Position numbers and translations under genes: made by a program | From: Natrinema saccharevitans | Lineage (GTDB): Archaea > Halobacteriota > Halobacteria > Halobacteriales > Natrialbaceae | Reading direction: 5' to 3' | Assembly: GCF_001953745.1 (NCBI RefSeq) | Contig: NZ_LWLN01000001.1 | Span: forward strand, 3,286,001 to 3,350,000 | DNA length: 64,000 nt | The notes under the pieces: model-generated | What the model was told of the DNA's origin: nothing | The model's database searches: none | Seen by the model: the letters and a program-made list of their open reading frames with translations, nothing else | Shown: positions 10,979 to 51,485 of the stretch, piece after piece | Numbering within the stretch: position 1 is the first letter of the stretch | Layout of the letters: every line of letters starts with the position of its first letter

Positions 10979-11064
10979 CTATAGTAGCCGCTGAACGTCA
11001 TTGCACACCTGATCGCACGACTGCGCTGCGATCAGTGTGTGAATCGTTTCGACGGCTACTATAG
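10979..11064. repeat. Family 2 palindromic repeat, copy 1
   Basis: An 86-bp element with ends CTATAGTAGCCG and CGGCTACTATAG that pair exactly, and an inner stem TGATCGCA/TGCGATCA around a short loop. It lies between serB and a small membrane-protein gene on the same strand. Copies 2 (18944-19028) and 3 (20856-20941) share the layout. No transposase gene is present in or beside it. Confidence 0.85.
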
Positions 11065-17658: not shown

Positions 17659-18126
17659 ATGGCACGAGATAATCCGGTTTCACGGCGGACAGCACTGAAG
17701 GTGACGGGCGCGGCGGCGACGACCGCGCTCCTTGCCGGTTGTAGCAGTGGCGGCAACGGTAACGGCAACGGTAACGGCAACGGCGACAGTGAGGGCCCGT
17801 TCACGATCGAGTCCGGAACGACCATCGAGCTCAAGTCGCTGGCTCAGTCCTGGGAAGGCGTCGCGCCGTCCCAGATCGAAGGCGTGGAGAACCCCGACCT
17901 CAGCCTCACCGAGGGCGAGACCTACACGATCGAGTGGGTCGAGAACGAGACGGGTACGCACAACCTCGCGGTCTACGACGACAGTGAGTCGGCCGTCGCA
18001 GGACCGACTGAAGAGACCAGCGAAGCCGGTGCGTCGGTCGAGTTCGAGGCGTCGAGCGACACCGTCGAGTACGTTTGTGAGCCCCACTACAGCGTCGGCA
18101 TGACGGGCAACATCGAACTCGAATAA
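17659..18126 (+). CDS. Halocyanin-type blue copper protein (lipoprotein), 155 aa
   Basis: A small type 1 copper electron carrier exported by Tat and held to the membrane by a lipid. The signal is SRRTALKVTGAAATTALLAGC, shown here as SRRTALKV and LLAGC, followed by a Gly-Asn repeat linker (from 17752; alternating GGC/GGT AAC codons). The copper ligands are a His in GTHNLAVY and Cys, His and Met in VCEPHYSVGM. The domain is about 110 residues. A TTTTTATG box 28 nt upstream supports the ATG at 17659. A second halocyanin-like gene follows in tandem, 172 bases on. Partner oxidoreductases are not in the window. Confidence 0.92.
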   Translation: MARDNPVSRRTALKVTGAAATTALLAGCSSGGNGNGNGNGNGDSEGPFTIESGTTIELKSLAQSWEGVAPSQIEGVENPDLSLTEGETYTIEWVENETGTHNLAVYDDSESAVAGPTEETSEAGASVEFEASSDTVEYVCEPHYSVGMTGNIELE

Positions 18127-18298: not shown

Positions 18299-18958
18299 GT
18301 GAAAAGCGACAGTGATCGAACTCGTCGTAGACTGCTCCGAACCGCCGGACTGACGGCGGCGACCGGCGTCCTCGCGGGGTGTCTGGAAGAGAGTACGACC
18401 GACGACCCCGGCGGCTCGACCGACGACGGCGATGGCGACGAACCCGATACGGGGGACGAGACCGATGGAGACGACGGGTCGGGAGCGGACGGATCCGACG
18501 GTGACGAGGCGTCTGACGGGGACGGTACCACCGACGCCGCCGACGCCGATTCGGAGACCGACCCAGAGGACGGGGAGACAGAACCGACCGAGACCGATCG
18601 CGAGTACGAGATCGAACCCGGAACGGAGATCCTGTTCGGCGGGGAGACCACCGAATGGGTCGGTCTCGAGCCGTCCGCGATCGAGGGGGTAGCGAACCCG
18701 ACGCTCGTTCTCGAGGCGGGCGAGGAGTACACGATCGGCTGGACCGAGGGAGACGGCGCCCAACACAACGTCGAAATCTGGGACGAAAACGAGGACGTCG
18801 TCGACGGCCTCGAGACCGAACTGGCCGCCGAGCCCGACGAGGGGCAGCGGCTGACGGTGACCGCCAGCGAGGAGATGGCCGCGTACGTCTGCCATCCGCA
18901 CACCATCACTATGCAGGGGACTATCCGGGTCCGAAGCGGCGAGTATCGTAGCTCTTGA
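18299..18958 (+). CDS. Second halocyanin-type copper lipoprotein with long acidic linker, 219 aa
   Basis: A GTG start (18299) begins a Tat lipoprotein signal (RTRRRLLRTAGLTAATG, then LAGC). A linker of about 80 residues, almost only Asp, Glu, Gly, Ser and Thr, follows, then a cupredoxin domain with ligands in AQHNVEIW and VCHPHTITMQG. The paralogue at 17659 has a much shorter linker, so the two may reach different partners across the surface layer. The TTTTTAG box is about 28 nt upstream. The last codons and the stop TGA lie inside family 2 repeat copy 2, so the C-terminus YRSS is encoded by the repeat. Confidence 0.9.
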   Translation: MKSDSDRTRRRLLRTAGLTAATGVLAGCLEESTTDDPGGSTDDGDGDEPDTGDETDGDDGSGADGSDGDEASDGDGTTDAADADSETDPEDGETEPTETDREYEIEPGTEILFGGETTEWVGLEPSAIEGVANPTLVLEAGEEYTIGWTEGDGAQHNVEIWDENEDVVDGLETELAAEPDEGQRLTVTASEEMAAYVCHPHTITMQGTIRVRSGEYRSS

Positions 18959-19028
18959 AACGATTCACACACCGATCGCAACGCTGTCCTGCGATCGGAT
19001 GTACATTGATTTTCAAGAGCTACTATAG
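18944..19028. repeat. Family 2 palindromic repeat, copy 2
   Basis: About 85 bp; the arms GTAGCTCTTGAAA and TTTCAAGAGCTAC pair perfectly, and an inner CCGATCGCA/TGCGATCGG stem pairs too. It resembles copies 1 and 3, but the arm sequence CTCTTG/CAAGAG differs from their CCGCTG/CAGCGG on both sides, so pairing is kept. It contains the TGA of the preceding halocyanin gene. Confidence 0.82.
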
Positions 19029-19180
19029 TTCGATCGCCCTCGAGCGGCGAGCGCGTCCCCGATCGAGCCGTTCCGCCTGCCCGCGTCGGGGTGCCTTCCC
19101 GCCGGTGCTCCGCACTCTCAGGATGGCATCAAAAGTACCATACCGCCTCGCTTCGCAGTAGCCCGTATCAGGTGATTTCC

Positions 19181-20293
19181 GTGACCGAAAAACGCGAATA
19201 CACGGCCGACTACCCCGACAAGACGCTGTATATCCCGGGTCCGACCGAGGTGCGCGAGGACGTCATCGAGGCGATGTGCGAGCCGATGTTCGGCCATCGC
19301 ATGGACCGGATGACCGACCTCTATACGACCATCGTCGAGGACACCAAGGAGTTCCTCGGCACCGACAACGAGGTCGTCATCCTGACCGGCTCGGGCACGG
19401 AGTTCTGGGAGGCCTCGACGCTCAACCTCGTCGACGAGAACATCCTCGTCCCGACCTGTGGCAGCTTCAGCGAGCGCCACGCCAACGTGGCCGAGCGGCT
19501 GGGCAAAGACGTCGACCGCCTCGAGTACGACTGGGGGCAGGCGATCAAACCGGAGGATATCCGCGAGACGCTCGAGGAGAGCGACAAACACTACGACGTC
19601 GTCGCGACGGTCATGAACGAGTCCTCGACGGGCGTGCGCAACCCCATCGAGGAGATCGGCGACGTCGTCGCCGAGTATCCGGACACCTACTTCGTCGTCG
19701 ACGCCGTCTCCTCGCTGGGCGGGGACTACGTCGACATCGACGAACACAATATCGACGTCATCTTCGCGTCGACCCAGAAGGCGTTCGCGATGCCCCCCGG
19801 ACTCGCGGTCTGTGTCGTCAGCGACGACGCCTACGAGCGCGAACTCGAGAAGGACTCCGCGTCGTGGTACGGCGGCTTCCAGCGGACGATCGACTACTAC
19901 GAGCGGAAGGGCCAGACCCACTCCACGCCGGCGATCCCGATCATGCTCGCGTATCGCAAGCAGATGAAACACATGCTCTCCGAGGGTCACGACGCCCGGG
20001 ACGAGCGCCACCGCGAGATGGCCGAGTACACCCGCGAGTGGGCCCGCGACCACTTCGACATGTTCCCCGAGGAAGGGTACGAATCGCAGACGGTGTCCTG
20101 CATCGAGAACACGCAGGGCATCGACGTTGCCGAGACCATCGAGGCCGTCTCCGAGGAGTACGACTTCGTCTTCTCGAACGGCTACGGCTCGCAACTCGGC
20201 GAGAAGACGTTCCGCATCGGCCACATGGGAGAACACGACCTCGAGTCGATCAAGGAGTTGACCGACGCGATCGAAGACGTCGCCGGGCTGTAG
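19181..20293 (+). CDS. Class V aminotransferase (serine-pyruvate / alanine-glyoxylate type), 370 aa
   Basis: A PLP enzyme of fold type I. Family features: PGPTEVREDVIEAM at the N-terminus, GSGTEFWEASTLN in the PLP-phosphate region, DAVSSLGGDYVDI with the Asp that pairs with the pyridine nitrogen, and the PLP Lys in ASTQKAFAMPPGL. It probably transfers the amino group between alanine or serine and glyoxylate or a keto acid; the true substrate pair is unknown. I chose the GTG at 19181 (VTEKREYTADYPDK) over the ATG at 19091; a GGTGA Shine-Dalgarno-like site ends about 5 nt before it, unusual in this window. Proximity to serine genes is loose. Confidence 0.9.
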   Translation: MTEKREYTADYPDKTLYIPGPTEVREDVIEAMCEPMFGHRMDRMTDLYTTIVEDTKEFLGTDNEVVILTGSGTEFWEASTLNLVDENILVPTCGSFSERHANVAERLGKDVDRLEYDWGQAIKPEDIRETLEESDKHYDVVATVMNESSTGVRNPIEEIGDVVAEYPDTYFVVDAVSSLGGDYVDIDEHNIDVIFASTQKAFAMPPGLAVCVVSDDAYERELEKDSASWYGGFQRTIDYYERKGQTHSTPAIPIMLAYRKQMKHMLSEGHDARDERHREMAEYTREWARDHFDMFPEEGYESQTVSCIENTQGIDVAETIEAVSEEYDFVFSNGYGSQLGEKTFRIGHMGEHDLESIKELTDAIEDVAGL

Positions 20294-20358: not shown

Positions 20359-20855
20359 TTAGGCGAACAGCCCCCAGAGCCACTCGAAGGTGTCCGCGAT
20401 CAGGTCCACGATCCGCTCGAGTATCGCCAACGGCCCACCGCCGTCGAGGAGGCCGCTGTCACCGTCGACCTCGGGGTCGGCACCGAGCGCCCGCGGGGCC
20501 GGCACCGAGCGCCCGCGGGGCGTTCACGAGTCCGTGGCCCTCCGCGCACGCTCCGAGTCCCGCCTCCGCCGACTCAGTGAGGGCGACGCTGACCGCCGCA
20601 CTCGGTTCCGGTCCCGCTTCCTCGCGGCTCTCCCAGACGAGCGCCGCGACGCCGGTGACGAACGGACAGGCCATACTCGTCCCGCTCGCCTGCGCGTACC
20701 GGTTGTCGACGGCCGTCGAGTCGATCTCCGTTCCCGGGGCCAACAGGTCGACGGCCGACCCGACGCTGCTGTAGGACGCCAGCGTCTCGTCCTCAAGAAC
20801 ATCGAGATTCGATTCGTACGGACGCGACTCTCGATATCGCGTTCTCCGGTGGAAC
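20359..20855 (-). pseudogene. Broken subtilisin-like (S8) protease, C-terminal part
   Basis: The reading frame begins at the edge of a family 2 repeat and holds only the end of a subtilase: SSVGSAVDLLAPGTEI, then the catalytic-Ser motif GTSMACPFVTGVAALVW. The catalytic Asp and His regions are absent. A 22-bp tandem duplication (20478-20521) shifts the frame and gives the early stop at 20459. Removing one unit restores a sensible tail, ending IADTFEWLWGLFA with a TAA at 20359. So the gene has lost its 5' two-thirds and is also frameshifted. Intact relatives are secreted Tat-dependent halolysins. Confidence 0.85.
20478..20521. repeat. Perfect 22-bp tandem duplication in the S8 pseudogene
   Basis: Two identical units of CGGCACCGAGCGCCCGCGGGGC (written here as CGGCACCGAG plus CGCCCGCGGGGC) at 20478-20499 and 20500-20521. 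Because 22 is not a multiple of three, one extra unit shifts the protease reading frame. Identity of the units suggests a recent event. Confidence 0.9.
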
Positions 20856-20941
20856 CTATAGTAGCCGCTGAAAGTCATTGCGCACCTAATCGCACGACAG
20901 CGTTGCGATCAGTGTGTAACTCGTTTCAGCGGCTACTATAG
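20856..20941. repeat. Family 2 palindromic repeat, copy 3
   Basis: An 86-bp element with ends CTATAGTAGCCGCTGAAA and TTTCAGCGGCTACTATAG that pair perfectly over 18 bases, with an inner ATCGCA/TGCGAT stem. It sits exactly at the truncated 5' edge of the S8 protease pseudogene. Confidence 0.87.
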
Positions 20942-21131: not shown

Positions 21132-21422
21132 CTACTGAATGTGGCCTTCTTCGCGAAGCTGGTCGGCCTCGCTTTTCTCGTAGCGCCAGGTGATGTCGGC
21201 CTTCTCGTCCTGCCAGTCCCAGGGTTCGACCAACACGACGTCGTCCTCGCGGATCCAGATGCGCTTTTGCATCTTCCCGGGAATCCGTGCGGTGCGTTCG
21301 GTGCCGTCGGCACAGCGTACCTTGACTCGATTCGCCCCGAGCATGTTCGTGACGGTCGCGAAGACCTCGTCGTCCTCGGGCATCCGGAGGTTCTTCCGAC
21401 CGCCCTCGCCGTCGTCGCTCAT
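21132..21422 (-). CDS. eif1A: Translation initiation factor aIF-1A, 96 aa
   Basis: This small OB-fold (S1-like) protein binds the A site of the small ribosomal subunit and helps start-codon selection. The sequence covers the normal length. Typical segments are [38 protein letters not shown] and [20 protein letters not shown]; the last helical bit is [21 protein letters not shown] box about 28 nt upstream fits a leaderless mRNA. A strong hairpin follows the stop. Haloarchaea often have two eIF1A genes; the other is not in view. Confidence 0.97.
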
Positions 21423-27848: not shown

Positions 27849-28928
27849 TTGAACCGACGAGAGATCTTGCGGAGAACTGCTGCGAGCAGTGTCGGTGCGG
27901 GATCGGCGTTGAGCACCCTTTTCGGGTCTGTAAGCGCCGAGAAGACGACTCGGGACGATCTCGACCAGATCGAGGAGGCGCCCGGAGTGCGGAAGATTCT
28001 CACTGAACTCGGCGTTCAGCGCCTTCCCGGACCGGGACGCGCCGAAAAACGACGAATCGAAGACGGCGGACGCCTCACCGAAGGTGAACTCGTCACGTGG
28101 AAGATCGAGATCCGCCCGTACGGTATCTTGCACGCATTCGAATACGAGGAGCGAATTGGTGCGGTATTCACGTTCGATCTCGACACTGCGAGGATCCCTG
28201 CAGGGTACTCGATGGCGGCGGAAGCGAACGCGTCGCTGGGTGCCAGCGGATCAGATCTCGTTTTCAGTCGCAACGCCACCGATGCCGAAACTGAACACGT
28301 ACTGTCGGTGATCGACGTCGACGGCGACATCGACAGCGCGAGAGTACACGCCACGACGGCGGCCAACGGATTCCGGGCTACCGTGCAGGTTGCGTCCGAA
28401 GAACCGGACGAACTCGATACGCGCGAGTACGTCATTTCCGTCGGCCCTGACTTCGACCCGCGGTCTGAGTCGATGTCGGACGTACTCACCGTTGAGGACG
28501 ACGCGGCTGACATTCTGACAGTTGAACCGCTCGTCCAGACGGCTGCGATTTCGTTCCCCAATCCCAAGGATATCGTTCTCGATGTCATCGAGAGTTGGCT
28601 CGTCGACAAGGTGGTCTCGGAAAGCCTCGAGTTCCTGGGGCGCGAATGTGATTCCTGTGGTGACTGTGCGAACGTCATTATCAGCATCCTAGACGGTTGC
28701 TCCCTGTGTAGACCTCTCATGGGAACCGGCGCATCTGGTGTCGGTGCGATACTGTTCGTGACGTGTTACTATGCGTGGTGTGGCAAAGTGTCGGACAAGG
28801 TAGAGTGCGCCGCCTGTTTCGCATGCCTGCTCACGAACGAAGATCCCGATATCCCCGACGCGGCGGATGCGCTTGCGTGGGTGTGGGACGAGTTGCCGTC
28901 TCCTCCGTCGCGCCCCTCCATCCCCTGA
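27849..28928 (+). CDS. Halocin C8-like secreted protein precursor (Tat signal, ten-cysteine C-terminal domain), 359 aa
   Basis: The TTG start gives a Tat signal (NRREILRRTAASS, then a hydrophobic run to about residue 30). Residues 31-266 have no Cys and form a soluble beta-rich pro-region. All ten cysteines are in residues 267-326 (267, 270, 273, 284, 287, 306, 311, 320, 323, 326), as pairs and CxxC groups around a hydrophobic Gly-rich stretch (GTGASGVGAILFV). Halocin C8 has a Tat signal, a pro/immunity region and a C-terminal peptide with ten Cys, so I infer a related antimicrobial peptide precursor. The tail ends in a Pro-rich segment (ELPSPPSRPSIP). An AT-rich promoter and the location in a decay zone suggest horizontal gain. 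Other Cys-rich secreted proteins remain possible. Confidence 0.6.
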   Translation: MNRREILRRTAASSVGAGSALSTLFGSVSAEKTTRDDLDQIEEAPGVRKILTELGVQRLPGPGRAEKRRIEDGGRLTEGELVTWKIEIRPYGILHAFEYEERIGAVFTFDLDTARIPAGYSMAAEANASLGASGSDLVFSRNATDAETEHVLSVIDVDGDIDSARVHATTAANGFRATVQVASEEPDELDTREYVISVGPDFDPRSESMSDVLTVEDDAADILTVEPLVQTAAISFPNPKDIVLDVIESWLVDKVVSESLEFLGRECDSCGDCANVIISILDGCSLCRPLMGTGASGVGAILFVTCYYAWCGKVSDKVECAACFACLLTNEDPDIPDAADALAWVWDELPSPPSRPSIP

Positions 28929-50672: not shown

Positions 50673-51485
50673 ATGGCAACATCTACCCGCCGCCGGACCG
50701 ACGGGCCGCTCCGTTCGACGCTCGTCGCCGCCGGGCTCGCGGTCGTCGGCCTGCTCGCGACGCAGTTCACGACGCTGCCAGCACTCCTGCTCGATATCCG
50801 GCTGGCCACGGCGCCGACCGAGACGTCGATCGCCAGCCGAACGCTCTTTTTCGTCCTCAACTTCGCTGGGTTCGTGCTGGTCGGGGCCGTCTATCTCGTC
50901 GTCACTGACCGAGGCTGGTCGTACGTCGACGTCCGGCCGCCGACGCGGCGCGGCTGGGCGTACGTCCTGCTCGGTATCGTCGCCAGCGTCGCGTTTTACG
51001 TCCTGATCAGCGTGACCATTCAACTGCTCTCGCTGCCGGCCTCGGAGAATCAGGTCGCGAGCTTCATCGGCGACGACCAGACGATGGTCCTCGTCATGAT
51101 CGCGATCGTCTTCTTCTTCAACGCGCCGGCCGAGGAGTTCCTCTACCGGAACATCGTCCAGAAACGCCTCTACGACGCCTTCACCCGGCTCCAGGCGGTC
51201 GCCATCGCCAGTCTCGTCTTCGGACTGATCCACTTCCCCGTCTACGCGGTCAGTTCGCCGTCGCTGCTCGCGACCATGGTTCCGGTCGCGGTCGTCATGG
51301 GCGGTGCTGCCGTCTTCGGCTACCTCTACGCGAAGACCGACAACCTGCTGGTGCCCATCGCCGCTCACGCGGCCTTTAACGCCCTCCAGTTCGGCCTGCT
51401 GTATCTCGCCCTCGAGTACGACCTCGAGGAGGCGGCGCCGGCCGGCGAGGCGATCCTCGCGGTCGTCACGGCGATCCCGCTGTAA
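50673..51485 (+). CDS. CPBP-family (CAAX-like) intramembrane protease, 270 aa
   Basis: About seven helices with the family motifs: EEFLYRN (catalytic Glu pair, motif 1), FGLIHFPVY (His, motif 2) and HAAFNALQF (motif 3). Type II CAAX prenyl endopeptidase-like enzymes of archaea probably process membrane proteins; some protect against bacteriocins in bacteria. Immediately follows the regulator gene on the same strand (108-base gap). Substrate unknown. Confidence 0.92.

Follow-up and report, generated by a model that had tools for sequence, protein, structure and literature searches.

Our results suggest that the subtilase fragment in this 64-kb stretch of the Natrinema saccharevitans genome (hereafter the window) is very probably an ordinary unitary pseudogene with nothing functional left. 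The syntenic subtilase gene from which it derives would have been lost through three separate events, namely insertion of a MITE, a deletion of ~1 kb and a 22-bp tandem duplication, listed here without implied order. The ancestor would have been a Tat-exported subtilase of ~453 residues encoded between an aminotransferase gene and the gene for aIF-1A, and a gene of this kind still occupies that position in relatives. The flanking genes and the parts of the former coding region are as follows.

19172-20293, plus strand: aminotransferase class-V gene, flanking synteny marker (Pfam PF00266, E 4.4e-23).
20359-20477, minus strand: C-terminal tail of the former subtilase with its stop codon, out of frame (tblastn and alignment with nine relatives).
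20478-20499, minus strand: second 22-bp unit in minus-strand order, absent from the nine intact orthologs.
20500-20521, minus strand: first 22-bp unit, in frame with the remaining catalytic part; the same 22 bases occur once in the N. thermotolerans ortholog.
20522-20794, minus strand: retained C-terminal part of the S8 catalytic domain, with 91 open codons, the Ser motif GTSMACP and PF00082 positions 185-271; homology to relatives ends at 20794.
21132-21422, minus strand: aIF-1A translation initiation factor gene, flanking synteny marker (NCBIfam NF003083, E 9e-56; Pfam PF01176).

The remnant belongs to the S8 family by its match to the PF00082 profile, with partial coverage (positions 185-271 of 288, E 3e-12, 46.9 bits against a cut-off of 21.8). 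It starts at approximately residue 316 of 453, so that residues 1 to ~315, the front two thirds of the gene, are missing. A preliminary description of this DNA had held that the S8 protease lacks its Asp and His parts, and this proved correct; the Asn part (AAGN) is also absent. Only the Ser motif is kept, and the remnant does not hold the catalytic Asp, His and Ser of PF00082 in one open frame, the Asp and His regions having been deleted. The promoter, start, Tat signal and propeptide are gone as well.

Comparison with other members of the genus shows what was lost. A whole subtilase gene of 452-459 residues lies between the aminotransferase class-V and aIF-1A genes in 9 of the 28 other genus genomes, and none of these nine orthologs is truncated. 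Among the genus genomes compared, a subtilase fragment occurs in this interval only in the window's genome. This pattern, with an intact gene at that site in relatives and a truncated, frameshifted one in the window, is that of a unitary pseudogene. No subtilase gene was found in the interval in the other 19 of the 28, five of which (G011, G019, G002, G024 and G016) have the flanking genes in a different relative orientation. Genome labels of relatives were matched to records for Natrinema mahii H13 (G004), N. thermotolerans DSM 11552 (G006), N. versiforme JCM 10478 (G044) and N. zhouii YPL30 (G021). All nine orthologs encode a twin-arginine motif at residues 11-12 and the motifs LDTGI, HGTHVAG, AAGN and SGTS, which we take to represent the catalytic Asp, the catalytic His, the oxyanion Asn and the catalytic Ser of subtilases. 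Pfam found a full S8 domain in both orthologs scanned (two of the nine), and the nearest solved sequences to the orthologs are subtilisins. The nine proteins end ~40-60 residues after the S8 domain, and this tail is conserved in every one. The syntenic S8 orthologs of Natrinema and related haloarchaea (e.g., that of N. mahii H13, JHUT02000004.1) share with the remnant their site, C-terminal catalytic sequence and tail, whereas the window copy lacks residues 1 to ~315 with the start region and carries the frameshifting 22-bp duplication. A further small duplication is seen in this interval in the genome resembling N. mahii, where 68 bp from the aminotransferase 3' end recur (G004:C4:123869-123936, 93% identity) between that gene and the subtilase gene.

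The perfect 22-bp tandem duplication at 20478-20521 that had been described earlier is indeed present as two adjacent, identical units. At unit lengths of 12-60 bp, the window has no other perfect tandem duplication except a 12-bp array at 17751-17783. As 22 is not a multiple of 3, the duplication shifts the frame; past it, the C-terminal tail that is conserved in the relatives continues in another frame. Residues 432-453 of the N. mahii-type intact protein were located there by tblastn, the stop codon lies at 20361-20359 and the tail end is amphipathic/hydrophobic like that of intact relatives. In the alignment, none of the nine intact syntenic orthologs (one genome per species) has the extra unit, which bears out the view that this unit frameshifted the pseudogene. 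The exact 22 bases occur once in N. thermotolerans and in none of the other eight orthologs, whose sequence has diverged. The proposal that deleting one unit would restore a tail of about 41 residues holds insofar as a conserved tail lies out of frame; its length is ~39 residues. It was the duplication that threw these last 39 residues out of frame, and replication slippage would be its most likely origin.

The second unit is decidedly unlikely to have arisen as an error of sequencing or assembly in a palindromic, GC-rich stretch. Such an error would fit the perfect identity of the units, the high G+C content and the absence of the extra unit from 9 of 9 relatives. However, the genome is in 3 contigs and is listed as 99.99% complete, there is no positive sign of error, and genes without function commonly acquire tandem duplications of this size. 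We consider it highly improbable that the duplication came first, in the whole gene, as a reversible switch between tailed and untailed protease, with the deletion following afterwards. Hardly any weight can be given to the related idea that, before the deletion, the 22-bp unit toggled the C-terminal tail of the whole, active protease and so decided between surface retention and release. A switch would explain why only the region behind the catalytic domain is affected by the duplication, why the tail is conserved in 9 of 9 orthologs and why the unit pair is perfect, but two units are present in none of the 9 relatives and the catalytic half is now gone. The earlier reading of the frameshift as recent and perhaps still reversible was over-interpreted and exceeds the evidence. 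Identity of the two units is weak evidence of recency because a short stretch can stay identical for a long time by chance. Loss of one unit could not restore the enzyme or its function because the promoter, start, Tat signal, propeptide, Asp, His and Asn are all missing.

In our preferred reading as an ordinary pseudogene, the loss of the front of the gene is attributed to a deletion distinct from the MITE insertion. The features at this edge are as follows.

20784-20793, minus strand: AGGACGAGAC, probable deletion junction; also present ~60 bp upstream of the start of the N. thermotolerans ortholog.
20795-20855, minus strand: probable 61-bp remnant of the gene's former upstream region, from local alignment to positions -160 to -1 of the G014 ortholog.
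20856-20941, no strand assigned: MITE unit of 86 bp, consisting of C, a TA target copy, the 80-bp element (20859-20938), a second TA target copy and G, with inverted ends TAGTAGCCGCTGAAA.

The preliminary description had correctly spotted a pseudogene and was sound in this, with one wrong detail: it put the break exactly at a family 2 repeat and considered the gene to have been cut by that repeat. Similarity to the intact genes ends at 20794 and the repeat occupies 20856-20941, leaving 61 bp between them. When aligned with positions -160 to -1 of the G014 ortholog, these 61 bp scored 37 against a shuffle mean of 18.8 (sd 3.3), a score reached by 0 of 500 shuffles. The match to the upstream region of G042 was weak (score 27, reached by 8 of 500 shuffles), and the upstream regions of the other seven orthologs did no better than shuffles. 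There is a convincing upstream match in only one of nine relatives, G014, which is not the nearest relative. This likeness emerged solely in a direct alignment to the upstream regions of the orthologs; when the 61 bp with two bases on each side were searched in 29 genus genomes, the only strong match was the window itself, and the best other match had an E of 0.003 over 36 bases. The G014 alignment continues over the position of the MITE, where G014 has an unbroken CATGAACTAGGTTC, an empty site with the sequence CTAG. These 61 bp most likely derive from the gene's former upstream region, and the MITE would have inserted within that region, at an intergenic CTAG whose empty site is kept by one relative.

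An inverted promoter fragment was also considered as the source of the 61 bp, on the basis of a ten-base stretch, noticed by eye, that these bases have in common with the N. mahii upstream region in the opposite orientation. This idea was dropped, the reverse-complement alignment scoring 20 against a shuffle mean of 17.9.

The deletion of ~1 kb would have joined DNA ~60 bp before the start to approximately codon 316, probably between direct repeats of AGGACGAGAC. In N. thermotolerans, AGGACGAGAC occurs in the upstream region at the aligned position of the junction, and these ten bases recur in the window at the gene edge. Deletion between these short repeats is a reasonable interpretation from sequence, for which the mechanism rests on one relative and a 10-bp repeat that may be due to chance. 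An alternative is that the MITE itself caused the truncation, either by inserting in the gene or by an imprecise transposition that deleted the adjacent 1 kb. We regard this as unlikely. The MITE lies just 61 bp from the deletion edge here, and BLAST found no copy in the nine intact intervals, as might be expected if it were involved. However, the intervening 61 bp resemble the upstream region of the gene and not subtilase coding sequence, a deletion next to the MITE would begin at the end of the element, and the other flank of the MITE joins orthologous intergenic DNA normally. As the gap of 61 bp resembles the upstream region, the MITE insertion and the deletion look like separate events.

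Within the 273 bp of retained catalytic sequence, five sites that do not vary among the nine intact genes differ in the window. All five changes are at codon position 1 or 2 and four alter the residue, a hint of a period under relaxed constraint. Over the same 273 bp, dN was lower than dS in comparisons with eight relatives by both YN00 and NG86 and with the ninth by NG86, as expected if the loss is young relative to the divergence of the species. Together with the 91 open codons, this would indicate that the loss cannot be very old, or that the signal predates it. By eye, the alignment shows the remnant to be a mosaic, its start like N. mahii and its end like N. thermotolerans, and dating of the branch was therefore given up.

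The genome contains six subtilase matches, the window remnant included. The preliminary description had suggested looking for an intact halolysin elsewhere. Whole genes do exist, as two tandem chromosomal halolysin-type genes with complete catalytic motif sets and one whole gene on a plasmid (C3:11218-11988), but these are paralogs. Halolysin SptA of Natrinema sp. J7 is, like the family of the remnant, a haloarchaeal secreted S8 protease, and the two chromosomal paralogs are related proteases with whole motif sets elsewhere in the window's genome. Halolysins carry a C-terminal extension of ~120 residues (PMC3158780), in contrast to the ~40-60 residues of the remnant's family. No extension of the SptA type was found in the nine orthologs of the remnant, and given this short tail 'halolysin' is strictly the wrong label. 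Two adjacent subtilase pieces in different frames lie at 82678-83334 and 83333-83449 of the small replicon C3 (L014 and L016), with C3:11218-11988 as their closest kin; they probably represent a second, frameshifted subtilase.

At least 40 copies of the 86-bp MITE unit are present in the genome (92 candidates, 40 scored). Among the 30 best of these copies, TA is found at the left edge of 30 and the right edge of 29, with C first in 26 and G last in 27. The element folds to a hairpin (z -8.2) and has the TA target duplication looked for in an IS630-type MITE. These edge statistics, with the empty site in G014, point to insertion into CTAG with the TA copied. IS630 itself prefers TA within CTAG. 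Congeners carry IS630-family elements of 1061 bp (DDE_3, PF13358) whose ends begin CTATAGTARCCGTTAGAA, similar but not identical to CTATAGTAGCCGCTGAAA of the MITE, and a DDE_3 family search of the window's genome detected no autonomous IS630 partner. Mobilisation by an IS630-family element of the congener type would be the natural reading of these ends. The closest known elements are haloarchaeal MITEs, such as those of Haloquadratum walsbyi (PMC3119063), and IS630-family elements; the traits in common with the Natrinema element are the absence of a transposase, terminal inverted repeats, a target duplication and IS-like ends. The Natrinema MITE differs from the H. walsbyi MITEs and IS630 in being an 80-bp palindromic element with a TA target copy inside CTAG. 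A literature search covering few subscription journals found no publications on this Natrinema MITE.

Three palindromic members of the MITE family occur in the window (20856-20941, 10979-11064 and 18944-19028). The last of these is diverged, at ~79-81% to other copies. A copper-binding (plastocyanin/azurin-like) protein has an open frame (18299-18958) that enters it at 18944, and the MITE supplies the final few residues and the stop codon of that protein. N. thermotolerans has head-to-tail MITE pairs separated by 2-5 bp (C49:27970-28055 and 28060-28144; C5:50920-51004 and 51006-51091; C48:137695-137779 and 137781-137868), which fits repeated insertion into the CTATAG created by an earlier copy.

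In summary, the finding would mean little beyond a correct annotation, that of an accessory exported protease lost in one lineage and kept by its relatives. A useful by-product is a MITE insertion that can be dated and whose empty site is seen in a relative; this fixes the target (CTAG, with TA copied) of a small element that is abundant in the genus.
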